Source: Rhodopseudomonas sp. AAP120
Lineage (GTDB): Bacteria > Pseudomonadota > Alphaproteobacteria > Rhizobiales > Xanthobacteraceae
Direction of reading: 5' to 3'
DNA length: 64,000 nucleotides
NCBI RefSeq assembly: GCF_001295845.1
Contig: NZ_LJIC01000017.1
Location: 1-64,000 of the forward strand
In this document: piece after piece, positions 24,606 through 56,887 of the stretch
Numbering within the stretch: the stretch's first letter is position 1
How the letters are laid out: each line of letters opens with the position of its first letter
Notes under the pieces: model-generated
Databases searched by the model: none
What the model was told of the DNA's origin: nothing
The model's input: only the letters and a program-made list of their open reading frames with translations
Made by a program: the position numbers and the translations under genes

Positions 24606-24618
24606 GCTCAGGCCGCCG

Positions 24619-25986: not shown

Positions 25987-26147
25987 CTCGACCCCATCTC
26001 GCATCTTGCGGCCGCAGATCCGGCCGGCGGGGCTGCGCGAGACGCGACGAGCCCGAAACAACGGGAACAGCCGGTCCGGCCGCAGCGGGACTGATTACAC
26101 CTGATGGCCGAACGAGGCAATCAAGCCTCCGCCTGCGGCCGGAACAG

Positions 26148-32610: not shown

Positions 32611-32622
32611 CGGCGTACTACT

Positions 32623-32636
32623 CACACACACACACA
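32623..32636. repeat. (CA)7 dinucleotide repeat in the leader of the phosphomannomutase gene
   Basis: Seven CA units (TG on the coding strand) lie 12 bases upstream of the ATG at 32610, where a ribosome-binding site would be expected. No purine-rich Shine-Dalgarno is visible there. Slippage in the tract would change the spacing of the leader but not the reading frame. Confidence 0.85.
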
Positions 32637-32680
32637 ACTGAAAGACACGATTCGCGTTTGGAAACCCGTGAGGCCGGCCG

Positions 32681-34093: not shown

Positions 34094-34623
34094 CGAGTCC
34101 TCGTTGATCGACGATAGCCTCGGCAGCGGGACGGTTGCAAGAACGGCAGGACCGCCGATCTCGTCTCCCCGGCCCCGGCCGGCGTGTTCGGCATGGGATT
34201 ATCCAACGAGCGATTGGTTTGCTCATCGGCAGCAGGGTGTCAATCCTCAAACACCGGACAGGAAGTTTATCGGGGCGAAGACTGCGCCCCAACGGCGCCG
34301 GCCCGGGATCGCGCTCGGGGCCGTTCTGCCTCATGGGAGACCAGACGTCGTGACTTTGTCACGTTCGAGTTGCTCAGAAAAATGGCAATGACACGAAGCT
34401 CGACCGACGAACGTGCGCTCCCCCGTGACATCGGGGTTGAGTGTAGCACGCGTCACACGCCTCTCTATCAAGAGGTTTGACGCAACTAATACCGTTCAAG
34501 TACAGATGATGGGAGCAATATGACATCCCGTTTGGGATACTCGATCTCAGGCGGCCACTCCGCGATAATTGTTTCTCGATCGTTGCGGACCTACCAACCT
34601 CGTGTTCGTTCGGACTGTTGCGT
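34094..34623. promoter_or_regulatory. 530-base divergent regulatory region
   Basis: No gene is supported here. The region lies between the manC operon (left, minus strand) and the WbsX-type gene (right, plus strand) and is less GC-rich than its surroundings toward the right end. A promoter-like pair reads TTGACG at 34477-34482 and TACAGA at 34501-34506 (18-base spacer) toward the plus strand. An inverted repeat ATCCC-GTTT-GGGAT lies about 20 bases downstream. It is probably the main promoter and operator region of the central glycan genes. Confidence 0.4.
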
Positions 34624-36582
34624 ATGAAGAACGCCGATTTGTCGAGGCTGCTTCAAACTTTCATCGATAACCATTTCGGTTATGTTTCGGATCGAGCCGA
34701 GTACATCTCGACCCTCTCGCAGATCAAGACTCCCCGGGCCGCCCGGCTGGTCGCGCACTACCTTCCGCAGTTCTATCCGATCCCGGAAAACAACGAATGG
34801 TGGGGCCACGGCTTCACCGAGTGGACCAACGTCACGCGCGCTGTGCCGCAATTCGTCGGGCATTATCAGCCACGACTGCCGGCCGATCTCGGGTTTTACG
34901 ATCTGCGGCTCCCCGAAGTGCAGGAGCAGCAGGCCGCAATGGCCAAGCACGCCGGGCTCTCGGCGTTCTGTTTCTATTTCTATTGGTTCAGCGGCAGGAC
35001 CTTGCTCGAGGCGCCACTCAAGAGCTTCGTCGAGAACGACAACATCGATTTCGAGTTCTGCCTGTGCTGGGCTAACGACGACTGGTCGCGAACCTGGTCC
35101 GGCAATGCCAATGAAATTTTGATTGCGCAGGAATACAGCCCGGATGACGACATCGCATTCATTGCGCATATCGCGCAATATCTGCGGCACAAGAAGTACT
35201 TCCGTGTCGACGGCAGGCCGCTGATCAATGTCTGGCGGTCGGCGATGCTGCCAGATCCGGCCGCCACCGTGGGCCGATGGCGCGACTGGTGCAGACAAAA
35301 CGGCATCGGCGAAATCCACGTCTGCCGCAGCGAGAGCTACGAACGCCTCGACCCCGCCGAAGAGGGGTTCGACAGTGCGTTTCAACATTCGCCGAGCGAC
35401 AGCCGATGGCTCGAGCGAAACCTGGCGCGCTACCCCGGCTCGCCGCCGTTGCTCAATCCGAATTTCGATGGCCAGGTGTTCGATTATCACGACCTGCTGC
35501 GCCGCGCGCGGAAGTTCGTCGAGCCGGACTATCCGTTGTTTCGCTCGGTGTGCCCGTCCTGGGACAATCAGGCCCGCCGTCCCGGCGCCGGCCGAACCCT
35601 GATGGGCGCCGACCCCGGCAGCTACCGGGACTATCTGGAAACAGTGATCGACCAAACCGCGCAACACCACGCCGACCCGAGCCAGCGGGTCGTTTTCATC
35701 AACGCCTGGAATGAATGGGGCGAAGGCGCGTATCTCGAACCCGACCGGCGGTTCGGCTTCGGCAATCTCGAGGCGACCAAGATGGCAGCTCTGCGTGTCG
35801 CGCTGAGAACCGGCGCGATGGCGGAGCCGGACCGCATCGCCATCGTGGTCCATGTCTATTACACGGACCTGCTCCCGGAATGCCTGGACTGGATCGAGAC
35901 ACTCCAGTTACCCCATGACCTGTTCGTGACGACGAGCGCCGACAAGCGGACGATCGTCGAATCCTTCATTGCCCAACGCGGGCTGGCCGCGACCCTGGTG
36001 TCGACCGAGAACCGCGGACGCGACGTCGCGCCGTTTCTCGAGGTCCTGCGATCGCTGGACGACGAGCGTTACGGCAAGGTGCTGAAGCTTCACAGCAAGG
36101 CGACGCAGGGCGGCCCTTATGGCGCAGCGTGGCGGCAGGGGCTTTTCCGACTGCTGGCCGATCCGGAGCACCTGAAGCGCGCCGCCGCCCTGTTGGACGA
36201 GCATCCGGAGATCGGCGTGCTCGGGCCAAGAAAATATCTGCTCGCCATGCAGCCCTATCTCGGACGCAATGAGGGCGCCGTTCGTCGGCTTGCGCAACGG
36301 ATGGGTGCGGAAGTCGACTTGGAGACGGACACATTTTTCGCCGGGACGATGTTCATCGCCCGCACCAAGGCGCTGCTGCCGCTGGGTGCCCTTGGGCTCG
36401 CAATGGCCGACTTCGAGCCGGAACTGGGACAGGGCAACGGCACGCTCGCGCACGCCATCGAAAGATCGGTGATCTACAGCGCCAAAGCGGCCGGGCTCAA
36501 ACTCGCCGCGATCGACGAGGAGGCCGCAGGGGGCGTCGGACTGGTGTCGCAGGGCTGCACCACCTTCCCGTATGTGGTGTAA
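34624..36582 (+). CDS. WbsX-like glycosyl hydrolase-99-type domain fused to RgpF-like rhamnan synthesis domain
   Basis: A 652-residue two-domain protein. Residues about 40-385 are the WbsX/GH99-like domain (VAHYLPQFYPIPENNEWWG, GFTEWTNVTRA, FCFYFYWFSG, LCWANDDWSRTW, NAWNEWGEGAYLEPD). Residues about 405-640 are an RgpF-type domain (IAIVVHVYYTDLL, STENRGRDVAPFL, VLKLHSKATQ) seen in rhamnan-polymer assembly proteins. The ATG at 34624 is preferred over a TTG six bases upstream. Its role is probably as a glycosyltransferase working on a rhamnose-containing polymer (inference from family names and the adjacent rhamnose genes). Confidence 0.88.
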   Translation: MKNADLSRLLQTFIDNHFGYVSDRAEYISTLSQIKTPRAARLVAHYLPQFYPIPENNEWWGHGFTEWTNVTRAVPQFVGHYQPRLPADLGFYDLRLPEVQEQQAAMAKHAGLSAFCFYFYWFSGRTLLEAPLKSFVENDNIDFEFCLCWANDDWSRTWSGNANEILIAQEYSPDDDIAFIAHIAQYLRHKKYFRVDGRPLINVWRSAMLPDPAATVGRWRDWCRQNGIGEIHVCRSESYERLDPAEEGFDSAFQHSPSDSRWLERNLARYPGSPPLLNPNFDGQVFDYHDLLRRARKFVEPDYPLFRSVCPSWDNQARRPGAGRTLMGADPGSYRDYLETVIDQTAQHHADPSQRVVFINAWNEWGEGAYLEPDRRFGFGNLEATKMAALRVALRTGAMAEPDRIAIVVHVYYTDLLPECLDWIETLQLPHDLFVTTSADKRTIVESFIAQRGLAATLVSTENRGRDVAPFLEVLRSLDDERYGKVLKLHSKATQGGPYGAAWRQGLFRLLADPEHLKRAAALLDEHPEIGVLGPRKYLLAMQPYLGRNEGAVRRLAQRMGAEVDLETDTFFAGTMFIARTKALLPLGALGLAMADFEPELGQGNGTLAHAIERSVIYSAKAAGLKLAAIDEEAAGGVGLVSQGCTTFPYVV

Positions 36583-37617: not shown

Positions 37618-38652
<1,035 letters not shown>

Positions 38653-40406: not shown

Positions 40407-40594
40407 AAAAACCTCTCAATCGATCGGTGGCCGTGCTGCGCGAAGGCAGGTCTTAGCAACCCGGGCGGCACGGCGAAAGGCCGTCTCGGGTTGTATTCCC
40501 ACCGATTTGCTGATCCGGTTGATCGGTGCCCTAACCAATTGACTTGGTTGAAGGCGTGCGGCAAACCAGCCGCTTCACGGGGCTCGAAAAGGCA

Positions 40595-41377
40595 ATGGTT
40601 TCAGTGAAGAAGGCGGTGATCCTGGCCGGCGGCATGGGAACACGTATCGCGGAAGAGACCTCGGTGCGCCCCAAGCCGCTGATCGAGATCGGCGGATTGC
40701 CGATCCTCTGGCACATTATGAAGATCTTTCACGCGCATGGCGTGAACGAATTCATCGTCTGCCTCGGCTACAAGGGTTACCTGATCAAAGAGTACTTCTC
40801 GAATTATTTCCTGCATCAATCCGACGTTACGTTCAATTTTGGTGACAACTCGATTCTGTACCACAACAAGCGCGCGGAGAACTGGACGGTGACCCTGGTT
40901 GATACCGGGGCCGAGTCGATGACCGGCGGCCGCGTCAGGAGAGTCCGGGACTACGTCGGCGACGAACCGTTCTGCCTCACTTACGGCGACGGCGTCGGCG
41001 ATGTCGACATCACCGCGCTGCTGCGCTTCCACGCCTCTCACGGCAAGCTCGCCACCATCACTGCGGTCAGCCCGCCGGGCCGCTTCGGCGCGCTGAATTT
41101 CGACGACAAGGACGGCGTCACCAGCTTCCAGGAGAAGCCCGACGGCGAACTCGGCTGGATCAATGGTGGGTTCTTCGTGCTGTCACCCGAAGTGTTCAAA
41201 TACATTGACGGCGACGCGACGATCTGGGAGCGCGAGCCGCTCGAAGGACTGGCGCGTGACGGCCAGCTCAGCGCCTACAAACATCACGGCTTCTGGCACC
41301 CCATGGATACGCTGCGCGACAAGCAATATCTCGAGCAGCTCTGGACCTCGTCCAAGGCGCCGTGGAAGATCTGGTAG
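40595..41377 (+). CDS. rfbF: Glucose-1-phosphate cytidylyltransferase
   Basis: This 260-residue enzyme forms CDP-glucose from glucose-1-phosphate and CTP. The motifs KKAVILAGGMGTRIAEET, RPKPLIEIGGLPILWHIMK and GDGVGDVDITALL, with HHGFWHPMDTLRDK near the end, are diagnostic for RfbF/DdhA. The ATG at 40595 is used; a TTG 17 codons upstream would add a non-conserved stretch. It opens a four-gene block with a methyltransferase, an RmlC relative and an SDR. Confidence 0.95.
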   Translation: MVSVKKAVILAGGMGTRIAEETSVRPKPLIEIGGLPILWHIMKIFHAHGVNEFIVCLGYKGYLIKEYFSNYFLHQSDVTFNFGDNSILYHNKRAENWTVTLVDTGAESMTGGRVRRVRDYVGDEPFCLTYGDGVGDVDITALLRFHASHGKLATITAVSPPGRFGALNFDDKDGVTSFQEKPDGELGWINGGFFVLSPEVFKYIDGDATIWEREPLEGLARDGQLSAYKHHGFWHPMDTLRDKQYLEQLWTSSKAPWKIW

Positions 41378-41422
41378 CACCCGGCCGAGTTCGATCCGGC
41401 GGCAACTCCAAGGTACTTGTTC

Positions 41423-42682
41423 ATGACTGATACGGCAAACCACGTTTGCAGACATTGCGGGACGCCGCTACGGATTCTGGTCGCGGATCTCGGCAGCACG
41501 CCGATCGCCAACGACTATTTGAGCGCCGCCAAGGTCGACGGCCCGGAGCCGTTCTATCCGCTGCGCACCTTCGTCTGCGACTCCTGCCGGCTTGTGCAGT
41601 TGCAGAACTTCTTCCGCTCCGACGACCTGTTCCGGGAGGACTACGCATATTTCTCGTCGTATTCGACATCGTGGCTCGCCCATGCCCAGCGCTACACCGA
41701 GGAGATGCGCCGGCGCTTTGCGATCGGCGCGTCCGATCTCGTGGTCGAGATCGCCAGCAACGACGGCTATCTGCTGCAGTACTTCCACAAATCCGGCATT
41801 CCGGTGCTCGGGATCGAACCGAGCGCGTCCGTCGCCAAGGTGGCGCAGGAGGAGCGCGGCATTCCGACGGTGGTGAAGTTCTTCGGCGCGGCGACCGCGC
41901 AGGAGCTGGTCGCGAGCGGCAAGCGCGCACGCCTGACTGCCGCTAACAACGTGCTGGCGCATGTTCCGGACATCAACGACTTCGTCAAAGGCTTCGCCAT
42001 CCTGCTCGCCGACGAGGGCGTCGCCACTTTTGAATTCCCGCACGTCGCCAACATGCTCGAGCTCAATCAGTTCGACACGATCTATCACGAGCACTTCTCG
42101 TATCTGTCGCTGCTGGCCTGCGAGCGCATCTTCGCCGCTCAGGGGCTGCGCGTGTTCGACGTCCAGCAGTTGCCGACCCACGGCGGGTCGCTGCGGCTGT
42201 TCGCCTGCCGCAAGGACGCCGGCCACACCGACGGGCCCGGCCTTGCGGAAGTCCGCGACCTCGAACGACGGCTGGGCCTCGATACCGACGCGCCGTATCT
42301 CGCCTTCGCCGAGAAGGTCCGCGAGACCAAGCGGGCCTTCCTCTCGCTGCTGATCGACCTCAAGCGCCAGGGCAAGTCCATCGCCGCCTACGGCGCGCCG
42401 GCGAAGGGCAACACGCTGCTGAACTACTGCGGCGTCGGCGCCGACATGATCGACTTCACCGTGGACATGTCGCCGCACAAGCAGGGCATGTTTCTGCCCG
42501 GCACGCGGCTGCCGATCCTGGCGCCGCAGGCGATCACCGAGGCCAAGCCGGACTACCTGGTGATTCTGCCGTGGAATCTGGAGAAGGAGATCACCGCGCA
42601 GATGGCGGCGATCGCCGACTGGGGCGGCAAGTTCATCATCCCGATTCCGACACCCAAGATCGTCGACGCGTTCCGCGCATGA
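41423..42682 (+). CDS. Sugar C-methyltransferase (class I SAM-dependent, zinc-finger type)
   Basis: A 419-residue protein with the three-part layout of nucleotide-sugar C-methyltransferases. An N-terminal zinc site is CRHCG and CDSC (residues about 10-55), the SAM domain has VVEIASNDGYLLQYF (about 108), and the C-terminal domain has AYGAPAKGNTLLNYCG. TylC3 and related enzymes use this fold to add a methyl branch at C3 of a 4-keto-6-deoxy sugar. The ATG at 41423 follows AAGG; its stop overlaps the next ATG (ATGA). The product is probably a branched-chain sugar. Confidence 0.9.
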   Translation: MTDTANHVCRHCGTPLRILVADLGSTPIANDYLSAAKVDGPEPFYPLRTFVCDSCRLVQLQNFFRSDDLFREDYAYFSSYSTSWLAHAQRYTEEMRRRFAIGASDLVVEIASNDGYLLQYFHKSGIPVLGIEPSASVAKVAQEERGIPTVVKFFGAATAQELVASGKRARLTAANNVLAHVPDINDFVKGFAILLADEGVATFEFPHVANMLELNQFDTIYHEHFSYLSLLACERIFAAQGLRVFDVQQLPTHGGSLRLFACRKDAGHTDGPGLAEVRDLERRLGLDTDAPYLAFAEKVRETKRAFLSLLIDLKRQGKSIAAYGAPAKGNTLLNYCGVGADMIDFTVDMSPHKQGMFLPGTRLPILAPQAITEAKPDYLVILPWNLEKEITAQMAAIADWGGKFIIPIPTPKIVDAFRA

Positions 42683-44159: not shown

Positions 44160-44972
44160 TCAGGCCGGATTGCCGTCCGGCGGCAGCAGTCGGCTTTGCC
44201 AGAATGCCCGGGCGTCCTCGAAGCGGTACCAGGCGTGGCATCCGAACGGAATGCGGCCGCCGGATTGCTGCAGCAGGAAGTTCGGATCGTATTCGAACGA
44301 AAACCGGTTCGCGATCTCGACAGGAGCGACCCGAAACGACGGATCGATCAGCGGCGCGAACACGCCCCAATACACGTCCTCGGCCAGCATCTTGTGCTGG
44401 ACGTAGTTCGAAGGCGTCAGATGCTTGCGATAGCGCCACAGGCGGTTAGCCGCGTCGAAGTTGCCTTCCAGCAGACGATCGAGCGTATGCCTCAGCGTCG
44501 GCCGCCGGTTCTCCAGATGATCGATGAAGGCGGAGACGCGGCGCAAGCTGAAGCCGCCATTGCCAGCCGCGATCTTGGCGAAAGGCCACGGCTCGCCGAT
44601 GTACTTCTCGATCAGATGAGGATACCAGCTGGCACCGATATAGTCGTAATCGCTCTCGCACCATTCGATCAGTTCGTCTCGAAACGCGAGCGCGTCGAGG
44701 TGATAAATCAGGATATGGCTGTGCTGAGCAAAGCGACGATAGAACAGCGGTGACAGTTGAAACCGGTTGTAGCGAAGCAGCGAGCCGAAACTGTCGTCTG
44801 GAAAGATCTCATCGTCCAATCCGGGAATCGACCAGTCGAGACGTGCCGGCTTGGCCAGGACAAGACGATAGCGACCGAGAAAATGCCGTAGGTGCCGGAG
44901 CGAGGCTTCCACCTCCGGCCCGGTCTTGGCTTCGTGAACGGGAACGACGATGACGGGATCGACGGACGGCAT
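44160..44972 (-). CDS. DUF5672 family protein (glycosyltransferase-like)
   Basis: A 270-residue protein of the DUF5672 type: VIVVPVHEAKTGPEVEASL, a DALAFRDELIEWCESDYDYIGASW block with an acidic cluster like a DXD site (given here in part), and the C-terminal NRFSFEYDPNFL with GRIPFGCHAW. The family is usually found in glycan loci. The ATG at 44972 overlaps the stop of the upstream SDR gene as TAATG, so the two are translationally coupled; an ATG five codons earlier is less likely. Precise function unknown. Confidence 0.8.
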   Translation of the reverse strand: MPSVDPVIVVPVHEAKTGPEVEASLRHLRHFLGRYRLVLAKPARLDWSIPGLDDEIFPDDSFGSLLRYNRFQLSPLFYRRFAQHSHILIYHLDALAFRDELIEWCESDYDYIGASWYPHLIEKYIGEPWPFAKIAAGNGGFSLRRVSAFIDHLENRRPTLRHTLDRLLEGNFDAANRLWRYRKHLTPSNYVQHKMLAEDVYWGVFAPLIDPSFRVAPVEIANRFSFEYDPNFLLQQSGGRIPFGCHAWYRFEDARAFWQSRLLPPDGNPA

Positions 44973-45724
44973 TACTGCTGATTCCAAACCGTTTGCATCA
45001 GCCAGGCCCGGCCGGTGATGCCGGACGCCTTTTGCGACATCAGAAACGCGACCAGTTCGGCGACTTCTTCGGGGCTGTTGAAGCGCTTCAATTCGAGCGG
45101 ATCGGCGATCTCGGCCTTGAACGCCGCCGCGTCACGCCCCTGCTCGGCGGCGATGCGATCAATGTCGCTATTGGTCATCTCGGTTTCGACCCAGCCCGGG
45201 CAGACGGCGTTCACGGTGATGCCGTCGCGGCCGAGTTCCTTGGCCCAGCATTTGGTCAGGCCGATCAAACCGAATTTCGACGCGCAATAGGCGCCGTAGC
45301 CGGCGCGGCCCTCGACTGAGAGCTGCGAGCCGATGGTGACGATCCGCCCGGGACGCGAGATCCGCGGCAGCAGCCCGCGCGTCAGCCGATAGGGCGCCTC
45401 CAGATTGACCGCCAGCACCTCGCCCCAAGGGTCGTGATCGGGGTCGGCAATGGCCGCCGTTTCGCAGATGCCGGCGTTGTGGACGACGCCCCATAGCGGC
45501 TCCCGCCAATCCGCGACAAACGACGCCAAAGCTGCCGGATCGGCAAGATCGAACGCCACAACGGTGGCGTCCGCGGCCTCGACGAAGCGTTCGGCGCGCA
45601 GCTTCTCTGCCGACGCCTCGGTCTTGGTCACCAGCGCAAGCGAAAAGCCGTCCCGGGCCAGCACCTGCGCGATGGCGAATCCGATGCCCCGCCCTGCCCC
45701 CGTGATGAGAATCCGTCGGGTCAA
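44972..45724 (-). CDS. SDR family oxidoreductase (FabG-like)
   Basis: A 250-residue classical SDR with RILITGAGRGIGFAIAQVL, NNAG-like HNAGICET, catalytic Ser (GSQLSVEG) and Tyr-Lys in YGAYCASK, and PGWVETEM. In this position it may reduce a keto group of a sugar or cyclitol precursor or of an acyl decoration; fatty-acid synthesis is unlikely. It is coupled to the DUF5672 gene. Confidence 0.9.
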   Translation of the reverse strand: MTRRILITGAGRGIGFAIAQVLARDGFSLALVTKTEASAEKLRAERFVEAADATVVAFDLADPAALASFVADWREPLWGVVHNAGICETAAIADPDHDPWGEVLAVNLEAPYRLTRGLLPRISRPGRIVTIGSQLSVEGRAGYGAYCASKFGLIGLTKCWAKELGRDGITVNAVCPGWVETEMTNSDIDRIAAEQGRDAAAFKAEIADPLELKRFNSPEEVAELVAFLMSQKASGITGRAWLMQTVWNQQ

Positions 45725-45859: not shown

Positions 45860-47509
45860 TCAGCGGCTGGCGTGGTGCTGCCAGATCTCCTCGAGCCGGG
45901 CGCGAACGGCCCGCGACGTTGTTTCGCGGGAAAACAATGCCTCCGCATGCGCCTTGCCACGCTGGCCCAAGGCGCGCGCGGCGTCGGGAGCGTCGGCAAG
46001 CTCGCGCATCGCGCGGCGAATATCCGGAACCGACGGGTCGGCCCAGACACAACCGCGACGGTAAGGTTCGTCCGTCACCTCGATCTCGGTCAAACGGTAA
46101 GCCAGCGGCCTCGCAACCCCATCGACGACAAAATCCGCCGCGCCGCCATAGGGCGTGGCGATCACCGGACAGCCGCTCAGCATCGCCTCGATGATCGTCA
46201 GTCCGAGCCCTTCGGAACGATGCGGCGAGACATAAGCGAAGGTGTGGTGCAGCAGATCGGCCAGTTCCGGATCGGAAAGGGTGCGCTCCATAAGAAGGAT
46301 GTTGCTCGCACCATCGGCGGCACTCGCCACCCGGCGCGCGGATATTGGATATCGGTCGGCCAGACCGATCTTCAGGACGAGCTGATAACGCGGATCGTCG
46401 CCGAACTCGGCCCGGAAGGCATGGGCGAGCGCTTCCGGGTTCTTGCGGTCGATGCGGCTCGACAGATCACAATTATAGAAGAACACCAGGCTGTCGTCGT
46501 TCAATCCGAAATGCGAGCGCGAAAACTGCCCCGGCGCGACCGGCGGAACCACCGCGGGCCGGAGCAGATTGACCGGGCGCGCCGACACGACATCGACCGC
46601 GCGCACGTTGAATGACGATGCGCACCAGATCTCGTCGAGCAGCGCCACCCACGGCATCCACTCGTGACGAAAAGCAGCGAGCTCCCAATACCAGATCCCG
46701 ATATTGTAGCGGTCCGGACTCAGAATCCCGTTCTGCCGCAGACCGTTCGCGACCAGATGGAAGATATCGGCGTTCATATGGATCAGATTGATCGGCTGCA
46801 GGCTTTGGACGCCCTTCAGGCCGGTGTCGACCGTCTCCTGGTGTTCGAATCCCTCGGTCCATTCGATCAGATGAACCGGAATCTCGGCGCTCTGCAGGGC
46901 ATCGACAAAACCTCGCGCGCTGACGCCGAGCCCGGAAATTCGCGACAGCGGCGAAACGAAATTCACCCCCATCGGAACAGAGGCCGGGCGCACCCATTCT
47001 CGGAGTGGCGGCTTCACCGGCTCTATACGACGCGGCGGCGTGTAGCGCCGCGTCTGGATTAGACCCGCCGACCCGAAGTTCAGAAAATGCCAGAGCGCCG
47101 ACACCTTTGCGCGGTCGACGACGGGGAAGAAGTTGCGATAGCGTGTCGGATCGAACTTGGGATGCGGCCTGAACCCGAGCTGTTCGCCTGATTCGATATA
47201 ATGCAGCAGAGGATTGAAACCGACCGGAAACTGCCCAAACTGGGTGCGATAGTAGTTCGCATCGAACCACGGATTGGGTGACCTCATTTCCCGCGCGCCA
47301 AAATCGATGTAGTGGCGCAGCGGATCCATCCCCGCAGCGTCGACATCGGCATAAGTCGCCAAGTAGAACTTGCGATCGAACAGTCCCGACCGCTCGATCA
47401 CTGCGTAGTCGTCGTCGCCGCTTCGGCAGCCTTCTAGATGACTGCGCCAGCGTTCGCTGACTTCGGTCATCGCGGCTGCGGCGGCGGTGGCGCTGGGAAC
47501 TTTGGACAT
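45860..47509 (-). CDS. Glycosyltransferase family 4 with N-terminal FDxxYY-type repeats
   Basis: A 549-residue protein. Residues about 41-155 hold three copies of a 38-residue module with the pattern FD.xfY...dpl.HYi.fG, e.g. LFDRKFYLATYADVD, WFDANYYRTQFGQFP and KFDPTRYRNFFPVVD. Residues about 175-549 form a GT4 transferase (VSPLSRISGLGVSARGFV, CDLSSRIDRKNPEALAHAF, YVSPHRSEGLGLTIIEAM). The module is common at the N-terminus of large polysaccharide glycosyltransferases and may recruit the growing chain or partners. The gap to the upstream GT2 gene is 16 bases. Confidence 0.9.
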   Translation of the reverse strand: MSKVPSATAAAAAMTEVSERWRSHLEGCRSGDDDYAVIERSGLFDRKFYLATYADVDAAGMDPLRHYIDFGAREMRSPNPWFDANYYRTQFGQFPVGFNPLLHYIESGEQLGFRPHPKFDPTRYRNFFPVVDRAKVSALWHFLNFGSAGLIQTRRYTPPRRIEPVKPPLREWVRPASVPMGVNFVSPLSRISGLGVSARGFVDALQSAEIPVHLIEWTEGFEHQETVDTGLKGVQSLQPINLIHMNADIFHLVANGLRQNGILSPDRYNIGIWYWELAAFRHEWMPWVALLDEIWCASSFNVRAVDVVSARPVNLLRPAVVPPVAPGQFSRSHFGLNDDSLVFFYNCDLSSRIDRKNPEALAHAFRAEFGDDPRYQLVLKIGLADRYPISARRVASAADGASNILLMERTLSDPELADLLHHTFAYVSPHRSEGLGLTIIEAMLSGCPVIATPYGGAADFVVDGVARPLAYRLTEIEVTDEPYRRGCVWADPSVPDIRRAMRELADAPDAARALGQRGKAHAEALFSRETTSRAVRARLEEIWQHHASR

Positions 47510-47525: not shown

Positions 47526-49184
47526 TCAGGTGATCAAGGAGAGATTGTCGGACAGCTTATCGTAGTCTCCGACAAAATTCGGATTCATATAGGGATCGCG
47601 GTCCAACAGCCCCTTCCACCTCGCAACGAAGTTGGCCGTATCGCTGTCCTCGGGAGCGTTGCGCGAGGAAGAACTCCGCTCGAAATGATACAACTCGGCA
47701 TGAGGCGTATACACGATGCGGTAGCCCCTTTCGCCCAGCCGAAGACAGAGATCGATGTCGTTGTAGTCGATTCTCATATTCTCGTCGAAACCGCCGACCT
47801 CGCGCAGCTTCGACATCGTGGTCGCTAGCACCGCGCCCGTAACGGCCGAATAGTTCCGCACCAAGTGAGTGAAACTGTAATAGCCCGGCGCGCCCGCCGG
47901 CCGATTGTAGAAAAGATGCATGCACGGCGAGGTCAATCCGAGCGCGATCCCGGCGTGCTGGATCCGATCGTCGGCGAAGCGCAGACGGCAGCCCACCGCG
48001 CCGATCTCGGGCTGGCGTGAGAAGCCGAGCAGCGCCTCGATCCAATCGGGGCTGATCACCTCGAGATCGTCGTTCAGAATGATGACGTCCTCGGTCTCGA
48101 CCTTGTCGATCGAGAAATTGGGCTTGTTGGAGAAGTTGAACGGCGGCTCGAATGCGTAGGAGTGGACACGTACGCCCAGCTTCTCGAACTTGGCGCGGAT
48201 ATCGGCGGGCAGATTGCCGTTGTCCACCACCACGATCTTGAATGCGCGGAAGGTGGATTTTTCGAAGATGCTGTCGATGAAGTGATCGACCATCAGAATG
48301 TCGCCGCGGCCAGGAACGTCGCGACGCCGCGAATCCGTCAGGATCAGCAATGTCACCGGATCGGGTCGGCGTCCCGCGCTCCAGTTGAGACGAAACAGTC
48401 CGTGCAGTTGGCCGAGGTCGACGGTGGCTTCGGGATCGCGCTGCCGCGCGTAGTCCAGCAGCGCCGCCCGCGCATTGATCAGCGCGGCCGGCTTGGCGTC
48501 AACAGCAGCTGCCGCCGAACCGGGAATCTTGCGCCAATGATACAGAATCTTCGGAATATGCACGATCTTGCGGGCACGGCCGCACACCCGAAGGGCGAGA
48601 TCGTAGTCCTGCGCACCGGCGAATTCGTGCCGCAACATCCCGACGTCGAAGAACAAACTCTTCCGAACGACGGTGAAATGCAGCACATACATCACCGAGG
48701 TCAGATGCTCCGGCGACCAGTCGGGCTTGAAGTAGGGCTCGGTCAGGCTGCCGTCGAGTTCGAGCTTGTCCTCGTCGGTGTAGAGGACGTCGATTTCCGC
48801 ATCGCGCTGCAGTTCAGCCGCGACGTCCGCGAGCGCATCGGGCTGCAGAACATCGTCATGATCGAGAAAGCCGACGAACTCCCCCGTCGCCATCTCGGCG
48901 CAGAGATTGGTCGCGCGGGAAATGTTGAGATTGGTCGGAGCCCGCACGATCTTGATGCGCCGATCGGTGCCCTTGTAGGCGTCGAGCACAGCAAGCGTCT
49001 GCGGATCCGTCGAGCAATCGTCGCAGATGCACAGTTCCCAATCCGTGAACGTCTGCGAGAGAACCGACTGGATCGTCGCATCGAGGACGTCCGGCGGCGT
49101 GTTGTAAACGGGTACCAGAATGCTGATCAGACAGATGTACGGGTCAGAAGCGTCGTGACGAGCAGTTGTCTTCGCTGGTGGCAT
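47526..49184 (-). CDS. Tandem-domain glycosyltransferase family 2 protein
   Basis: A 552-residue cytoplasmic transferase with two GT-A modules. The first (about 18-215) has ISILVPVYNTPPDVLDATIQ, ICDDCSTDP and FLDHDDVLQP with the DXD-type site. The second (about 275-500) has IVVVDNGNLPADIRAKF, EDVIILNDDLEV and YNDIDLCLRLGERGYR. Such two-domain enzymes can add two different linkages. The ATG at 49184 is chosen over a TTG at 49199. It leads the pair with the gene at 45860. Confidence 0.92.
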   Translation of the reverse strand: MPPAKTTARHDASDPYICLISILVPVYNTPPDVLDATIQSVLSQTFTDWELCICDDCSTDPQTLAVLDAYKGTDRRIKIVRAPTNLNISRATNLCAEMATGEFVGFLDHDDVLQPDALADVAAELQRDAEIDVLYTDEDKLELDGSLTEPYFKPDWSPEHLTSVMYVLHFTVVRKSLFFDVGMLRHEFAGAQDYDLALRVCGRARKIVHIPKILYHWRKIPGSAAAAVDAKPAALINARAALLDYARQRDPEATVDLGQLHGLFRLNWSAGRRPDPVTLLILTDSRRRDVPGRGDILMVDHFIDSIFEKSTFRAFKIVVVDNGNLPADIRAKFEKLGVRVHSYAFEPPFNFSNKPNFSIDKVETEDVIILNDDLEVISPDWIEALLGFSRQPEIGAVGCRLRFADDRIQHAGIALGLTSPCMHLFYNRPAGAPGYYSFTHLVRNYSAVTGAVLATTMSKLREVGGFDENMRIDYNDIDLCLRLGERGYRIVYTPHAELYHFERSSSSRNAPEDSDTANFVARWKGLLDRDPYMNPNFVGDYDKLSDNLSLIT

Positions 49185-49449
49185 TTCCGACCATATCAAT
49201 GCGGCTGAAGAGCCTGAAGGAAGGAGTAGCGGCGCAAATCGCCTCTGCTACAGGTACCATGGCCGATATCGATGGTCCATTGGTCCTTCAAAAACCGAGA
49301 TATCGCGCGCCGTAACCGGGATGACGCGATGCTTTCTCAGCGGGCAAGCACGAGACTGCAGCATTTTCCCGAAACCGGACACCTCTGTCCGAAATGGATC
49401 AGCACGATCGCAAACCTCGGCGGGCAAGGTTCGAAGCAGATCGTCCGGA

Positions 49450-50610
49450 TCAGTAGCCCGAACGGGTGCCTGCGCGCCGATTGGCTTCGATCGCTTCGAA
49501 CAGCACCTCGCGCGACACCCAATGCCCGTGCAACCCGTCCTCGCCGCTGTTGCTGGGAACCCCGATGGTGCGCAGCAGCCCCACATAGGCCCGATCGCGG
49601 AAGAAGTGCTTGTCGTAGCGGACCTTCTCCCAGATATCACCGAGCGAAAACTCGTAGGGAACCATGGTCGGCAGTCCCAGCATCGCCAGCGAACGATAGT
49701 GAATATCGACGGTTTCCTCGTCGGTGACACCCATCAGCCGGCCGATTTCCGCCGACACGCACATCCCGATCGAGATCGCTTCGCCGTGATAAATGTCGCC
49801 CCCCGAGAGGTGCTCGACTGCGTGTCCGACCGCGTGGCCGTACTGCTTGACCACCTCTTCGCGGTCGGAATGCAGGCTGGGCGCCATCATCTCGAGCTTG
49901 AGATTCACGGAACGAACCACCGTCTCGGTCAGGAAGTCGAGTTCGCCGAGATGATTGTGATGGGACATGATGTAGTTGAGGAAGTCGCTATCCTGGCACA
50001 GCGCGTGCTTCATCGATTCCGCGAGCCCGCAGCGGATCAGCCGCGGATTCAACGTGCGTAGCGCGATCGGATCGATCAGCACATTCGACGCGGGATAGAA
50101 GCTCCCGATCAGATTCTTGCCATGACTGAAGTTGAGTGCCTGCTTGAAATCGATCGCGGCATCGACCTGGGCTAGCAGGCTCGTCGGTAGATGGATCAGG
50201 CCTATGCCGCGATACAAGGTCGAGGCGAGAAAGCCGGCCAGATTGTTGACCAGGCCGCCGCCGAGGCTGAACACCACGGAATATTTGTCGATCCCGTAGT
50301 CGAGCGCGGTCTGAACTAGGCGCGCATAGACCTCGAAGCTCTTCGACGATTCTTCCGGCGGCACGACGATCGTCCGCACCAGCCGCCCGCTCCGCTCGAT
50401 GCTTTCCAGCACCGGCCGCAGATACAGCTTTTCGACGTTCTTGTCCGTGATCAGAAGGTGCTTGGAGTCCTTCCGCACATTGTCGAGAACACCGAGGCTG
50501 TCGAGATTCCAGAGGCCGTTCTGAGCCACCACAACCCGCGTGTTCATATGGTTGTCCGCACGGAAGCTCGATGAGAGCGAAACGTCGGATGGAGGATGTT
50601 CCATTTTCAT
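49450..50610 (-). CDS. Sugar phosphate cyclase, dehydroquinate synthase fold (2-deoxy-scyllo-inosose synthase-like)
   Basis: A 386-residue enzyme of the dehydroquinate-synthase superfamily, which closes sugar phosphates into carbocycles with NAD and zinc. The NAD loop is LGGGLVNNLAG (116-126), and the zinc ligands E198 (GLAESMKH), H259/H263 (YGHAVGHAVE) and H275 (YHGEAI) are all present. The active-site segment reads DFKQALN (154-160) with HGKNLIG following. True AroB enzymes have GGKTAVN there, while 2-deoxy-scyllo-inosose synthases have KQAVN. It sits inside a glycan locus without aroK. A carbocyclic (inositol-like) product is inferred. Start codon uncertain (ATGs at 50610, 50604, 50547). 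Confidence 0.85.
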   Translation of the reverse strand: MKMEHPPSDVSLSSSFRADNHMNTRVVVAQNGLWNLDSLGVLDNVRKDSKHLLITDKNVEKLYLRPVLESIERSGRLVRTIVVPPEESSKSFEVYARLVQTALDYGIDKYSVVFSLGGGLVNNLAGFLASTLYRGIGLIHLPTSLLAQVDAAIDFKQALNFSHGKNLIGSFYPASNVLIDPIALRTLNPRLIRCGLAESMKHALCQDSDFLNYIMSHHNHLGELDFLTETVVRSVNLKLEMMAPSLHSDREEVVKQYGHAVGHAVEHLSGGDIYHGEAISIGMCVSAEIGRLMGVTDEETVDIHYRSLAMLGLPTMVPYEFSLGDIWEKVRYDKHFFRDRAYVGLLRTIGVPSNSGEDGLHGHWVSREVLFEAIEANRRAGTRSGY

Positions 50611-50664: not shown

Positions 50665-51648
50665 TCATAGCCGCCGCAGCGCGGGCACGCCCGCAAGAAC
50701 GCGGCCGAGCGGCTCGAGGCTCTCGGGCAACAGATTGCGCCTGTTGATACGACCCGTTCGCCGCGGTGAAGACTTGTTCTGCAGCAGATCTCCGACCGCT
50801 CGCGCGATCGCTCCCTCGGATTTCGGATCGATCGCGATCACCTCGTCGCCGAAATGCTCATTGGTCCAGTCGCCTTCCGAAACCACGATCGGCCGGTTTG
50901 CCAGATAGGCCTCCATGGCCGACATCCCGGCGGGCTCGAGCGACGCCTCGAGATAGACGTCACAATTCTGCAATGCTGAGCGCAGCATTTCGGATTTCGG
51001 TTGGATGTGCGGGATGAACTTGAAGTGCGGCGGGGCACTGCGCCGGCACGCCTCATAATAGTGCCGGTCGCGATAATCGCCGACCAGCACGAGCGGCACC
51101 GCGCTGTCCCTTAGCGCATGAATGGCCGTCAACTGGTTCTTGCGCTCCTCGATGATGCCCAGCCACAGGACATAGCGGTCGAGTTGGTGATGCGACTTGA
51201 ACAGATCCGGATCGGCGGGCTCGGCATAGCAGCGGTCGACGCCCCACGGACAGAGCACGGCCTTTGAATCCGGAAATCCGGCATATCTGCTGACATTGTC
51301 GCGCTCGGCGGTCGATTTGAACACGATCTGGTCGGCCAGCCGGAAGAACTCTTCGGCATTCGCCCGGTCGTGATCGCTGGGCGGCCCGATCCACCACAGA
51401 TTGGGGACCAGCACGATGCGCTTCGCCGAGGCATTGAGCGCCCGGAACAGGTTCATGCCGGATTCGACCACCGAGAAGTGTAGCACGGTGTCGTAGAACG
51501 AGATCGGTTGCGAAGTCGGGCCGTAGAGATCGACCCTGAAGCCCAGCAGGCGGAGATTGTTCGCCAGCTCGACGATTTCGAACTCACCGCCGCCGCGGTG
51601 CAGAAACGCCTCGGGATATGTGGTGATCAATACCCGTGGGTCACTCAT
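50665..51648 (-). CDS. Glycosyltransferase, GT4-like (GGGE paralogue 3)
   Basis: A 327-residue transferase whose N-terminus RVLITTYPEAFLHRGGGEFE matches the same block in the products at 15681 and 26148. Further matches to 15681 are FYDTVLHFSVVESGMNLFR, YVLWLGIIEERKNQLTAI and VYLEASLEPAGMSAMEAYL. It is upstream of the sugar-phosphate cyclase (54-base gap, same strand), so both are probably expressed together. It is divergent from the large gene at 51947. Confidence 0.88.
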   Translation of the reverse strand: MSDPRVLITTYPEAFLHRGGGEFEIVELANNLRLLGFRVDLYGPTSQPISFYDTVLHFSVVESGMNLFRALNASAKRIVLVPNLWWIGPPSDHDRANAEEFFRLADQIVFKSTAERDNVSRYAGFPDSKAVLCPWGVDRCYAEPADPDLFKSHHQLDRYVLWLGIIEERKNQLTAIHALRDSAVPLVLVGDYRDRHYYEACRRSAPPHFKFIPHIQPKSEMLRSALQNCDVYLEASLEPAGMSAMEAYLANRPIVVSEGDWTNEHFGDEVIAIDPKSEGAIARAVGDLLQNKSSPRRTGRINRRNLLPESLEPLGRVLAGVPALRRL

Positions 51649-51946
51649 CCGGGGGTATCCTCGTGGCTCGCTGGCGCTGTGGAGGGCCCGTCATACGGAT
51701 TTCGCCCTGCGGGAGCAACCGCAATCGGCATATGGAAAGCCCTCTCGGCGTTCCGGTTCTCGGGAAAAGCCTTCTGGTTTCAAACGGATGACACACGCCG
51801 AGCGAGAGAATCGCGGGACCTGACCGCAACGCCGCCGAGCCAAAAGCCACGGACCGGCGACTATCGCGCTGAATCCTGCATCGGCGGTTTGCCAAACACG
51901 TTGAACGCCATTAGCAATGCAGCGCTGTTCCCTTCGGATCACCCCG

Positions 51947-54595
51947 ATGAATGTCGATCAACTGTCGGAAGAGCTGTCGCACCCCGACGGCGAGTATCCG
52001 AACTGTTCTCTAGGATTTGGCCTTCCCAGATCACTGTTGCTGAAGTGGCAATCGGCGGGGCCGGACTTTCATCAAAAAGTGCCGATGCGGTCTGCCGCGG
52101 ACGCCGACGTCCTGCTGGCCTGGTGGTTCACCAGTACGGACAGCAGTTCCACCGAAGTCGACGCGCTCACGGCGGCCTATCTGCTCGACCGCGGTCCATT
52201 CTGCGTCGAGCAGGACGTCGCGAGCGCCGACCGCCTGCCCTACGACTGGCTGGTACAGTTGTTCGTCTGCGAGCGCGAATTCAGCGCCGAACGATTCAGC
52301 GTCACCCTGCCCGCCTCGCTGGCGCTGAGCCGACACCGCCCCGAGCATTTCCAGTACTGGATCGCGAATATCGAGCGGATACTGGAAAGTCATCCCGCGC
52401 TCGCGCCGGGGCTATTCGAGCGCATCGCCGCCTACGCGACGGCGGTCATTCCAGAGTGGCCGCAGGACAGCGTGCTTCCACCGCTACGGCTATTCGGCCT
52501 GATTTACGATGCACGGCCCGAACTACAAGCCGGCTTCGACGTCGGCACGGAGCAGGGATACTTCAACCTGCTCTCGTGGTTCTTCAGGTCAGGCCTGCTG
52601 GAATATCGGCTGGCGCTGCGGTTGTTTCTGCACTGGCTGCAGCCGACCGAACTGGGCCTCACGTCGTCCTTTTGTGGCGAGTCCAGGCTGCATCCGGCCA
52701 TCACCCAGGCGGCCCGCGGCGTTCGGTCAGAATTGGCCTTGATCGCGGCCGACGGCGATCCGCCCGACGACGTCGTATTCGGCTGGTGGCTGCGGGCCGC
52801 CCGGCATCTGGTCACGCGTCCGGGTCAGCTCGGCGCCAGGCTCCAGCTCGTGCGGATGGTTCGGGCGTTCTGGTTCGAAGCGAATTTCGGCGCTTTGTCG
52901 GGCGCAGTGCCGGCGGACATCCCGGGATATCTCGCCCGGCTGCATCGTACGCTGCCCGGACTGACCCAAACCTACGATCTGGCAACTGCGCAAGGCCGGT
53001 CGGCCTACCTGTCATGGTGGAACAACACCGGCCGCTTCGAACATCTCGACTTCGCGATCCTCGAGCAGGAGGATATGTTTGCGCCGACGCTGGCCTATGT
53101 CCAGGATGTCGACCTGCCGATCACCACCGCCTTGCTGCGGTTGCGCGACGAACAACCGGCGCTGGCCTGCGATCTTTCATCCGCTGCCGGAAGGATGAAT
53201 TTCTTCGATAGCCTTACGCATCTTTGGTCGTCGGGGCAACTGACGACGTTCGAGCAGACCCTGCGCAAGCATCGGGGCGAGGTGAAAGTTCTCGCCGAAC
53301 AGTTCTGCGGCGTCGCCCGGCAAATCCTGTCGGCCGAGCCACTCCCGCAGTCGCTGTCGAACAACGTGGCTTGGTGGCGAACCGAACAGCGACACTACAT
53401 CTATCGTGTCGGCTACAAGTCGCAAACTCTGCGCGTCCCCCCTGCAATCGTGACCAAGCCCGCAGCCGCCGGGCGCGAGCAGGTCGACATCGAAATCGTC
53501 GGCTTTCCGCGCGCGGAAAGCGGCCAAGGCGAGGACGCGCGAACGGTGTTCGAGAGCCTGCAGCAGGAGACCTCGCTGCGCCTCAGCCTGTTTCATACCC
53601 GGCGATGGCTTCCGGGTCCGAACAAGGCCGCCGAGAGGTTCGAGCCTTACATCCGCCCCGACCTGCAGGACGCCCGTATCCGAATTTTCGCGTTTTCGGC
53701 CTTCGACATGCTGGCCGAGCAACAGTTCGAGGGGCTGCAAGGCTTTGCCGCAGACCACGTGATCGGCTACTGGCCGTGGGAGCTGTCGCGATGGCCGCGG
53801 CAGGTCTCGCTGCCGCATCTGATCGCGGACGAGATCTGGTCGTCGACGCGGTTCATCGTCGACAGCCTGTCGCCGGTGACCTCGAAGCCCGTCATTCACA
53901 TGCCGCTGCCGGTGACCGTGGACACGGCGGCACTGCCTGGCCGCGACGCTGTGCCGGAGCTTCCGCCCGACCGCTTCAACTTCGTCTTCATCTTCGACGG
54001 CTTTTCGTATTTCGCCCGCAAGAATCCCTTGGGCACGATCCGGGCTTTTCAGAAGGCCTTTCCAAAGAGCGAACGCCACGACGTCGGCCTGACCATCAAG
54101 GCCATGAATGCCGATCGCAATCCGATCCTGCTCGCTCTCAAAATGTTTGCCGAGGAGGATCCGCGGATCACTCTGATCTACGAGACCTGGGATCGCGCAC
54201 GCGTGATGCAATTGATCGAATCCGCGGACGCGCTGGTCTCGTTGCATCGCTCCGAGGGGTTCGGCCGGATCATGGCCGAGGCGATGCTGCTGCGGACGCC
54301 GGTGATCGCCTCGAACTACAGTGGCAACAGGGACTTCTGCACCGACGACACCGCCTTCGTGGTCGATGGGCACGTCACCCCGGTGCTTGAGGATCAGTAC
54401 ATCTTCTGGAACGACCAGGAATGGTTCGAACCATCAACCGACATCGCGGCCGCCCATATGAGGGCTCTGTTCGATAATCCGAACATCGCCGCCGCCAAGA
54501 TCGAGCGCGCACGGCAGAACATGCTCGACAACTACAGCCTGCAGGCATGCGGTCGCCGCTATGCCAGCCGTATCAACGACATCCTGAGCCGATAG
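51947..54595 (+). CDS. Large glycosyltransferase family 4 with repeated N-terminal module
   Basis: An 882-residue protein. The C-terminal part (about 513-882) is a GT4 transferase (VDIEIVGFPRAESGQGED, WPWELSRWPRQV, NFVFIFDGFSYFARKNPLG, SLHRSEGFGRIMAEAM near 765). The first 480 residues contain at least three copies of a 34-36-residue helical module beginning near 191, 337 and 404. Its pattern is P.L....D(V/L)....GR..F...W....G....Y..A, with Trp-rich WW or WF pairs repeating elsewhere. The ATG at 51947 is preferred over 51917. The 298-base gap to the left holds the divergent promoters; no gene is seen in it. Confidence 0.88.
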   Translation: MNVDQLSEELSHPDGEYPNCSLGFGLPRSLLLKWQSAGPDFHQKVPMRSAADADVLLAWWFTSTDSSSTEVDALTAAYLLDRGPFCVEQDVASADRLPYDWLVQLFVCEREFSAERFSVTLPASLALSRHRPEHFQYWIANIERILESHPALAPGLFERIAAYATAVIPEWPQDSVLPPLRLFGLIYDARPELQAGFDVGTEQGYFNLLSWFFRSGLLEYRLALRLFLHWLQPTELGLTSSFCGESRLHPAITQAARGVRSELALIAADGDPPDDVVFGWWLRAARHLVTRPGQLGARLQLVRMVRAFWFEANFGALSGAVPADIPGYLARLHRTLPGLTQTYDLATAQGRSAYLSWWNNTGRFEHLDFAILEQEDMFAPTLAYVQDVDLPITTALLRLRDEQPALACDLSSAAGRMNFFDSLTHLWSSGQLTTFEQTLRKHRGEVKVLAEQFCGVARQILSAEPLPQSLSNNVAWWRTEQRHYIYRVGYKSQTLRVPPAIVTKPAAAGREQVDIEIVGFPRAESGQGEDARTVFESLQQETSLRLSLFHTRRWLPGPNKAAERFEPYIRPDLQDARIRIFAFSAFDMLAEQQFEGLQGFAADHVIGYWPWELSRWPRQVSLPHLIADEIWSSTRFIVDSLSPVTSKPVIHMPLPVTVDTAALPGRDAVPELPPDRFNFVFIFDGFSYFARKNPLGTIRAFQKAFPKSERHDVGLTIKAMNADRNPILLALKMFAEEDPRITLIYETWDRARVMQLIESADALVSLHRSEGFGRIMAEAMLLRTPVIASNYSGNRDFCTDDTAFVVDGHVTPVLEDQYIFWNDQEWFEPSTDIAAAHMRALFDNPNIAAAKIERARQNMLDNYSLQACGRRYASRINDILSR

Positions 54596-55780: not shown

Positions 55781-56491
55781 TCAGTTCGTCACCTTGGCGC
55801 TGCTCACCAGCGTCGGCTTCTCGAGATAATCCTTCGGGAACAGCTTCTTCAGGTTATCGATCTTCGGCAGGTCGTTGTAGACAATATAGGGCTGGCTCGG
55901 GTGCAGCGTCAGGTAGTCCTGATGATAGGCCTCCGCCGGATAAAAGCGGTCGAGCGGACCGACCTTGGTGACGATCGGGCCACCGTAGACCTTCGCCCCG
56001 TTGAGCTGCGCGATGTAGGCGTCAACCACCTTCTTCTGATCATCGTTGAGAGTGAAGATCGCCGAGCGATATTGCGTGCCGCTGTCGGGACCCTGCCGGT
56101 TGAGTTGGGTCGGATCATGCGCAACCGAGAAGAAGATCTGCAACAGCTTGCCGTAGCTGACCTGCTTCGGATCGTATTTGATCTCCACTGCCTCGGCATG
56201 GCCGGTGGTGCCGGTCGACACCGTCATGTAGCTCGCCGTCGCCTTGCTGCCGCCTGCGTAGCCTGAAACGGCGTTGACCACGCCGGCCGTGTGCTGAAAC
56301 ACGCCCTGCACACCCCAGAAGCATCCGCCTGCGAAAACTGCGGTCTGCAAACCGTCTCCTGCCTTGGCATCGATCGTCGGCGGCGGGATCACCACGGCCT
56401 CTTCGGCGGCACGGCTCGGCGTGAAGCTCGCAGACAGGGCGAGCGCGCTCAGGGCGGCGGCGCAGGCAGCAAGACGGCTGATAAAGCGCAT
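55781..56491 (-). CDS. msrA: Peptide-methionine (S)-S-oxide reductase, exported
   Basis: A 236-residue MsrA with the catalytic GGCFWGVQ (C57), [17 protein letters not shown] and the Tyr/Glu-rich active-site surroundings. A signal peptide (residues 1 to about 28, TPSRAA/E) points to the periplasm, unlike its MsrB partner. The mature part contains no cysteine other than the catalytic one, so the usual resolving Cys at the C-terminus is missing and an external thiol must regenerate it. The ATG at 56491 opens the signal sequence. Confidence 0.94.
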
Positions 56492-56707
56492 GGGTTTTCC
56501 TCGGGTTCGACGTTCGCTCGTTCGGCGCCGCAACCAGTCGGCGCAATCCTCTTCCGGTGACAAGATACGGCGAGACGACAAAAGCGTTACGCCTCGGGGC
56601 ACACGAATGCGTGAGCCGGCTTGGCACGGCCTATTCCCGGAACCGGGACTTAACGTTAACCCCGGGTCGGGCTGGATTGTCGCACCCGACGGAGCCACAA
56701 TGCCTGC

Positions 56708-56782
56708 GGCCCGGTGGCGGAAGATCAACGCGGGAGCGGTGCAACGCTCTTTTTCCTGGTTCAAGTCCAGGCTGGGCCTCCA
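56708..56782 (+). tRNA. tRNA-Cys-like gene, anticodon GCA, aberrant anticodon and D loops
   Basis: The 75-base sequence folds as a cloverleaf with encoded CCA: acceptor GGCCCGG/CTGGGCC (one G-U), D-stem GCG/CGC, T-arm CCTGG-TTCAAGT-CCAGG and discriminator T, the usual Cys identity base. The anticodon region is GGAGC-GGTGCAAC-GCTCT: UGCAA gives anticodon GCA, but the loop has eight bases, or six if its end bases G and C pair. The D-loop GAAGATCAA lacks the conserved GG. It could be a divergent working tRNA-Cys or a degraded copy. Confidence 0.6.
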
Positions 56783-56887
56783 ACACCCCAAATTGCCGGT
56801 TGACGGGAGGCGTTAAACTCTTTCGTCGCTGCGGAAACTGGTCTAAGACACGCCCGCGCGCCTGGGAAGCCCGGCGCTGAACAGCAA

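Follow-up and report, generated by a model that had tools for sequence, protein, structure and literature searches.

A sugar phosphate cyclase from a sister clade of the 2-deoxy-scyllo-inosose synthases in a polysaccharide locus of Rhodopseudomonas sp. AAP120

What does a ring-forming enzyme of the dehydroquinate synthase (DHQS) fold do among glycosyltransferases? The question is raised by a gene on contig NZ_LJIC01000017.1 of Rhodopseudomonas sp. AAP120, of which positions 1 to 64,000 were analyzed (the window). The gene (49450–50610, minus strand) is a single open frame with an ATG start and encodes an intact sugar phosphate cyclase (SPC) of 386 amino acids. Both halves of the Pfam family DHQ_synthase are matched (N half 2.3e-32, C half 1.3e-24), and the NCBIfam model for AroB, TIGR01357, scores 247.9 bits, under its cut-off of 305. 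The original prediction had named two unusual motifs, and both were found as quoted, DFKQALN at residues 154–160 and LVNNLAG within GGGLVNNLAG at residues 117–126. Its statement that the zinc and NAD sites of the fold are kept was also borne out by alignment: the zinc ligands E198, H259 and H275 are all present, as are the GGG of the NAD loop, K156, K165, N166, D150, R134 and K201. With the DHQS fold, the Glu/His/His zinc site, the GGG loop for NAD and the Lys/Asn phosphate site, the protein has the features of the SPC superfamily.

The AlphaFold2 model (pLDDT 90.1, pTM 0.90) matched solved sugar phosphate cyclases at Z values of 36–48, with up to 47.7 for DHQS, 42.1 for 2-deoxy-scyllo-inosose synthase (DOIS), 41.0 for EEVS and 39.8 for DDGS. 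Since these values are high for all four subfamilies alike, the fold is certain and the subfamily is left undecided by it. Among PDB entries, DHQS ranks above DOIS by whole-sequence score as well as by fold, and BtrC, a DOIS, is the fourth-best match by sequence. That the gene is not a chance product follows from its orthologues, which are 96–97% identical in two congeners, 79% identical in two other named genomes and 48–65% identical in six more (L066–L071).

To place the protein, it was aligned with two orthologues and three DOIS sequences, and this alignment was used to scan named species genomes. The best 80 of 155 relatives were taken, so that the clade size given here is a lower bound. 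Of these 80, 26 (L064–L089, 36–79% identical) group with the window protein, while tree and motifs assign the remaining 54 to the DOIS type. Scans of genome and viral contigs with close orthologues alone found nothing and their patterns were uninformative. The window protein, the two congener orthologues and the 26 relatives, 29 aligned members in all, are referred to as the Q clade. In a tree of 61 rows this clade is supported at 100/99, DOIS including BtrC (20 rows) at 100/97 and the two together at 100/96; the window cyclase branches outside DOIS, which is whole without it. The sedoheptulose 7-phosphate (S7P) cyclases and EboD stand apart, separated from the Q clade by a branch with 100/95 support, as judged from three S7P rows (L146–L148) and one EboD row (L150) from annotated plasmids, with EVS and aminoDHQS not represented by name. 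The best tree that places the Q clade with AroB was rejected (p-AU 0.013). A quick tree of 118 rows also recovered the Q clade (29 rows, 98) and DOIS (56 rows, 99) whole; it holds no S7P cyclase or EboD references, and the order of the Q clade, DOIS and AroB was read from the 61-row tree instead.

The SPC of the window belongs to a clade of its own, with DOIS as the sister group and a clade-specific Gln in the active site. The phylogeny proposed as a check of the original prediction came out in its favor insofar as the protein does not fall inside AroB and has DOIS as its nearest relative; it does not fall inside DOIS either. The label inosose-synthase-like is apt to the same degree, as the protein is closer to DOIS than to AroB, the S7P cyclases or EboD on the tree. 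Because it branches outside DOIS and lacks the Glu invariant there, inosose synthase is an analogy and not an identification. Literature searches, conducted mostly without subscription papers and preprints, revealed no description of the clade among the titles and abstracts listed, and it is apparently a hitherto undescribed branch of the ring-closing sugar cyclases.

The active sites were compared in one alignment of 145 sequences, among them the 29 clade members, 57 DOIS and 52 AroB. The residues kept throughout SPCs (GGG, R134, D150, K156, K165/N166, E198, K201, H259 and H275) are found in 29/29 clade members. Position 256, just before the Tyr-Gly-His and three residues ahead of the zinc His, is Gln in 29/29 clade members, Glu in 57/57 DOIS and Asn in 52/52 AroB. 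Similarly, position 202 is His in the whole clade, Asn in all 57 DOIS and mostly Tyr in AroB (49/52). The clade and DOIS (57/57) have N123 and Q157 in common, which no other group in the alignment possesses, and K156, Q157 and N160 of the DOIS substrate loop KQ[AG]xN occur in 29/29 members. The remaining letters of the motifs that drew attention to the gene are less constant, as only 11/29 members have N122 and D154/F155. Lys334 of the window cyclase is as in AroB, whereas DOIS has Asn there. AroB, though alike in fold and catalytic residues, differs by its invariant Arg at 252, Asn at 256, Thr at 157 and Asp at 123, all of which the clade lacks. At column 252 the Arg of AroB (52/52) is absent from 29/29 clade members, and the window cyclase has Glu there, hence Glu and Gln at columns 252 and 256 instead of Arg and Asn. 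We take this Arg to be the carboxylate-binding Arg264. According to the DHQS and BtrC structure papers, the AroB Arg reportedly binds the carboxylate of DAHP and the DOIS Glu is said to matter for catalysis. With the Arg missing from every clade member DAHP is an unlikely substrate, and with Gln in place of the DOIS Glu the chemistry may differ. None of the papers listed by a literature search dealt with Glu243 of DOIS.

The cyclase is rare. In the genus of the window it is carried by 3 of 16 genomes searched (the strain's own, G002 and G003; 96–97% identity), and the other 13 gave AroB-level matches only, of about 150 bits or less; photosynthetic reaction-centre genes occur in 16/16. The G002 locus is collinear with the window over the stretch compared (31.4–64 kb), and in G003 (L060–L061) a block matching 30.5–54.6 kb of the window, cyclase included, is inverted. 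Within the family (Xanthobacteraceae sample) the gene was found in 5/296 genomes. Even draws of 397 genomes from the order, 385 from the class and 398 from the phylum, searched at strict E-value limits of 1e-48 and 1e-50, gave no match above 185 bits besides the window's own at 868 bits, and the next-best matches have AroB motifs. Further hosts of the clade are Bradyrhizobiaceae PARB1 (L064), Rhodoplanes, Paraburkholderia atlantica, Ralstonia, Trinickia symbiotica, a Chloroflexi bin, Sulfurovum and a Bdellovibrionales bin. The remaining 18 clade loci among the best 80 of 155 relatives belong to Myxococcota/Deltaproteobacteria or other bins; this Myxococcota branch groups together at 92/59 in the 61-row tree, that is, not with full support.

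The most constant companion of the cyclase is a short-chain dehydrogenase/reductase (SDR), encoded in the window at 44972–45724 (minus strand) with TGxxxGIG and YxxxK present. Related SDRs occur in 24/26 clade loci (best 80 of 155) at 118–422 bits, and in the two loci lacking one, L065 and L075, the sequence ends 2.6 and 0.14 kb past the cyclase. In 17/18 loci of the Myxococcota branch no more than 80 bases separate the start of the SDR from the cyclase; in the window's branch the distance between the two ranges from 8 bases to 8.7 kb, and in L069 they are on opposite strands. The same search in the 54 DOIS loci gave 11 matches with a best score of 104 bits, four of them within 1 kb of the cyclase at 62–80 bits. 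Since the best solved matches of the window SDR are an unnamed SDR family oxidoreductase and then FabG, little can be said from them about its substrate.

The surroundings of the cyclase were described correctly by the original prediction: it lies among glycosyltransferases in a glycan locus. The analysis showed GT2 and GT4 neighbors, an ABC exporter and sugar-nucleotide genes. A GT4-type glycosyltransferase is located directly upstream (50665–51648, minus strand) and immediately precedes the cyclase in L064–L068 as well. The gene is further flanked by a tandem GT2 glycosyltransferase (47526–49199, minus, 74% to L064), a GT4-type enzyme (45860–47509, minus, 64% to L064), a large GT4-type enzyme (51917–54595, plus, 58% to L064) and a DUF5672 protein (44160–44987, minus) that is also near the cyclase or SDR in L064, L069 and L071. 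The polysaccharide set as a whole extends over about 16–54 kb and includes rhamnose-type, GDP-mannose and CDP-glucose genes. The exporter comprises a Wzm-like ABC-2 membrane protein (19152–19988, plus) and a Wzt-like ATPase of 253 amino acids (19999–20760, plus). These are followed on the minus strand by a GT4-type glycosyltransferase (20715–21920, 51–53% to L066–L068), a UDP-GlcNAc 2-epimerase family protein (21917–23290), a polysaccharide-deacetylase-like protein (23034–24605, weak Pfam match of 0.023, 40–42% to L066–L068), an AMP-binding protein (24619–26061, Pfam below cut-off, 40–49% to L066–L068, L070 and L071) that is presumably CapK/PaaK-like, a frame related to GT4-type genes of L066–L068 and L070 (26148–27335, 43–53%), an RmlD family reductase (27169–28044), an NDP-sugar 4,6-dehydratase family protein (28084–29115), a phosphoglucomutase/phosphomannomutase (31114–32721), a ManC-type mannose-1-phosphate guanylyltransferase/mannose-6-phosphate isomerase (32681–34093) and a GDP-mannose 4,6-dehydratase family protein (37618–38637). 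On the plus strand are the glucose-1-phosphate cytidylyltransferase RfbF (40544–41377, 441 bits, cut-off 300) and a C-methyltransferase (Methyltransf_13/_14, 41417–42682) that probably acts on an NDP-sugar.

Much of this set recurs in distant hosts. ManC, the ABC exporter, the CapK-like AMP-binding protein, GT4 enzymes, the cyclase and the SDR are common to the window, three Burkholderiaceae loci and the Sulfurovum locus, and the deacetylase-like protein to the window and the Burkholderiaceae loci. ABC-transporter polysaccharide loci are the setting of the cyclase in the window and in four or more of its relatives. PARB1 has the glycosyltransferases, the cyclase, the SDR and DUF5672 in common with the window, and no exporter was seen within its 21 kb of sequence; L065, L069 and L071 have fewer genes in common.

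A different arrangement was observed in the Myxococcota branch. In 15/18 loci (best 80 of 155) a nucleotidyltransferase (NTase) forms the N-terminal half and the cyclase the C-terminal half of one frame of 622–701 amino acids; of the other three, L080 is cut off at its start and L079 and L087 are unfused. By sequence, the best solved relative of the NTase domain of L089 is CTP:inositol-1-phosphate cytidylyltransferase (2xme 6.9e-16, 4mnd 4.1e-15; next 7.3e-10). A PfkB kinase follows in 14/18 loci, the query locus L078 counted. The four others are the cut loci L074 and L075, and L073 and L089, whose genomes have PfkB elsewhere (118 and 137 bits). Among the 54 DOIS loci (best 80 of 155), PfkB was found in 0/54 and the NTase as one match of 32 bits. 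Of 103 genomes sampled from the phylum of L089, the cyclase is encoded in 11, including those of L089 and L073, which are the two already counted above. In 11/11 of them the NTase is joined to the cyclase and the SDR is close by, and in 8/11 PfkB is close by too; one genome has the module on two different contigs. Twenty flanking frames, scanned out of 77 candidate frames at 12 loci, belong to unrelated families or have no Pfam match (4/20), which leaves the three-gene core seemingly on its own; among these 20 neighbors nothing that would use an NDP-cyclitol, such as a CDP-alcohol transferase, was detected. Cyclase, SDR, PfkB and NTase of this branch could form a module able to make an NDP-cyclitol.

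In 11 genomes of the window's branch a search for the Myxococcota-type NTase gave no close relative (best 42.6 bits), and a search for the corresponding PfkB gave a best score of 86 bits, from the Chloroflexota genome, with none of the other ten exceeding 35 bits. This makes activation and attachment of a cyclitol the weak link in that branch, where the cyclitol might be glycosylated as an acceptor or be served by an enzyme not recognized here.

We favor, with a probability of roughly 55%, a metal- and NAD-dependent SPC that makes a deoxy-inosose from a hexose 6-phosphate, the product being reduced by the SDR and the resulting cyclitol used in a surface polysaccharide. Oxidation, elimination, reduction and ring closure are the established general chemistry of SPCs. 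Here, a hexose 6-phosphate would most likely be oxidized transiently at C4, lose its phosphate, be re-reduced at C4 and close to a six-carbon ring, with deoxy-inosose as the presumed product. The near-constant linkage suggests that the SDR reduces the ring ketone to the cyclitol. From there, the PfkB kinase and the fused cytidylyltransferase-like domain of the Myxococcota branch would lead to an NDP-cyclitol, while in the window's branch the adjacent glycosyltransferases may join the cyclitol into the exported polysaccharide, which is the weakest step. A cyclitol in the polymer is plausible. Apart from bradyrhizose, no cyclitol turned up as an O-antigen component among the titles and abstracts listed in literature searches that covered the broad topics in part. 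A bolder reading, less likely than not, is that the clade is a new SPC class and provides a route to activated cyclitols independent of inositol-phosphate synthase. Its cyclase, together with the reductase, the kinase and the cytidylyltransferase, would yield an NDP-deoxyinositol that serves Myxococcota as a head group or as a donor for glycans, whereas in Rhodopseudomonas-like bacteria, Burkholderiaceae and Sulfurovum the cyclitol itself would be incorporated into an exported surface polysaccharide, as a type of polymer unit that has so far gone undescribed.

Known pathways resemble this scheme in part. The usual setting of DOIS is an aminoglycoside cluster, whereas the Q clade occurs in polysaccharide or mixed contexts and has an SDR partner. 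The cyclitol pathway of acarbose and validamycin consists of a cyclase, kinases, a nucleotidyltransferase and a pseudoglycosyltransferase, with AcbR and ValB resembling glucose-1-phosphate adenylyltransferases (PMC9200736). The Myxococcota-branch module has a similar logic of cyclase, reductase, kinase and nucleotidyltransferase, but its cyclase is of another SPC branch and its NTase is fused to the cyclase and nearest to inositol-1-phosphate cytidylyltransferase. CDP-inositol pathways combine MIPS with a cytidylyltransferase for di-myo-inositol phosphate or inositol lipids (PMC9246714). The cytidylyltransferase-like enzyme is a common element, whereas in the clade an SPC would build the ring in place of myo-inositol phosphate synthase, and the product would then have to pass through a kinase. 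EboD and the S7P cyclases EEVS and DDGS are likewise SPCs other than AroB, and EboD is described as a clade of unknown substrate as well (PMC5133447). They are set apart by the tree with its four reference rows, and no ebo genes were recognized among the window frames scanned.

The closest competitor is a true DOIS that converts glucose 6-phosphate to 2-deoxy-scyllo-inosose and was recruited into a glycan locus. The sister relationship, the fold and zinc ligands, the KQAxN loop with N123 and the rank of BtrC would all fit, but the clade is separate with full support, Q256 and H202 replace the Glu and Asn invariant in DOIS, K334 replaces an Asn, and no aminotransferase was found among the window frames scanned with Pfam; we regard this as unlikely, albeit to be taken seriously. 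It is rather improbable that the enzyme cyclizes a different substrate, for instance a sugar phosphate with seven carbons or an N-acetyl group, or that its product serves outside the polymer, for example as a lipid head group or solute. The clade-specific Q256 and H202 and the unrelated neighbors scanned in Myxococcota, unlike those of an antibiotic or glycan cluster, would speak for it. Two points argue against it: the S7P cyclases and EboD stand apart on the tree, and the window genes have glycosyltransferases on either side and share their locus with a polysaccharide exporter. A second dehydroquinate synthase, which the Pfam match, the TIGR01357 match below cut-off and the first rank of DHQS structures might suggest, is scarcely credible in view of the rejected AroB grouping, the loss of the AroB-invariant Arg and Asn and the polysaccharide context. 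Moreover, the strain has another DHQS-family gene on contig C35, with a better N-terminal Pfam score (158.6 bits versus 114.7 for the window cyclase), that groups with AroB in both trees; we regard it as the housekeeping AroB.

Bradyrhizose is an inositol-fused sugar, and the original prediction had linked the cyclase to its formation. That the enzyme makes part of this or a similar bicyclic sugar is very improbable. The window belongs to the same family as genus g47, which from our assignment is probably Bradyrhizobium, and a C-methyltransferase is present in the locus. However, the gene is absent from both photosynthetic g47 genomes sampled (7.4 and 7.8 Mb), where the search gave just a single match per genome, at the level of AroB (152 and 151 bits), and from 291/296 family genomes, and relatives of the cyclase occur in Myxococcota, Chloroflexota and Campylobacterota. 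Busset et al. 2016 describe the bradyrhizose genes as unknown and propose a cluster of 11 genes that includes a dTDP-glucose 4,6-dehydratase and is conserved among six photosynthetic strains of Bradyrhizobium (PMC4743980). Taken together, the genomic evidence against the link is good, though not final.

The products of SPCs end up in aminoglycosides, acarbose and sunscreens. A clade that differs by a single residue at the metal site, occurs in several phyla and is linked to surface glycans or to a CDP-inositol-like activation module would bring a further type of ring formation into the biosynthesis of polysaccharides or lipids. The scheme makes a testable prediction on the O-antigen of phototrophic bacteria, and the fused enzyme could be assayed in one pot. 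An easy mislabelling of such genes as AroB is corrected as well.

Some minor observations were made along the way. In the window, WbsX-type glycosyltransferase and RgpF rhamnan-synthesis domains share one frame (34618–36582, plus strand), and a methionine sulfoxide reductase A domain (55781–56791, minus strand) follows about 150 residues with no Pfam match; the start may be nearer. Polysaccharide loci from several phyla have the CapK/PaaK-like AMP-binding protein in common (window, L066–L068, L070, L071), with a deacetylase-like neighbor in the window (both genes together 23034–26061, minus strand) and in L066–L068. Trinickia has the Q clade in one species (L068) and DOIS-type genes in two others (L109, L114). 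DOIS-type genes were also detected in Sodalis, Photorhabdus, Xenorhabdus and Pseudomonas (L055, L095, L097–L099, L101–L103); the one on a Sodalis praecaptivus plasmid (L055) has genes for ABC transporters, a PIG-L deacetylase and a radical SAM protein in its vicinity. On plasmid 1 of Ketogulonicigenium vulgare (L150), typed as conjugative, the cyclase has EboE, UbiA-type and phosphodiesterase neighbors and belongs to an ebo-type operon.
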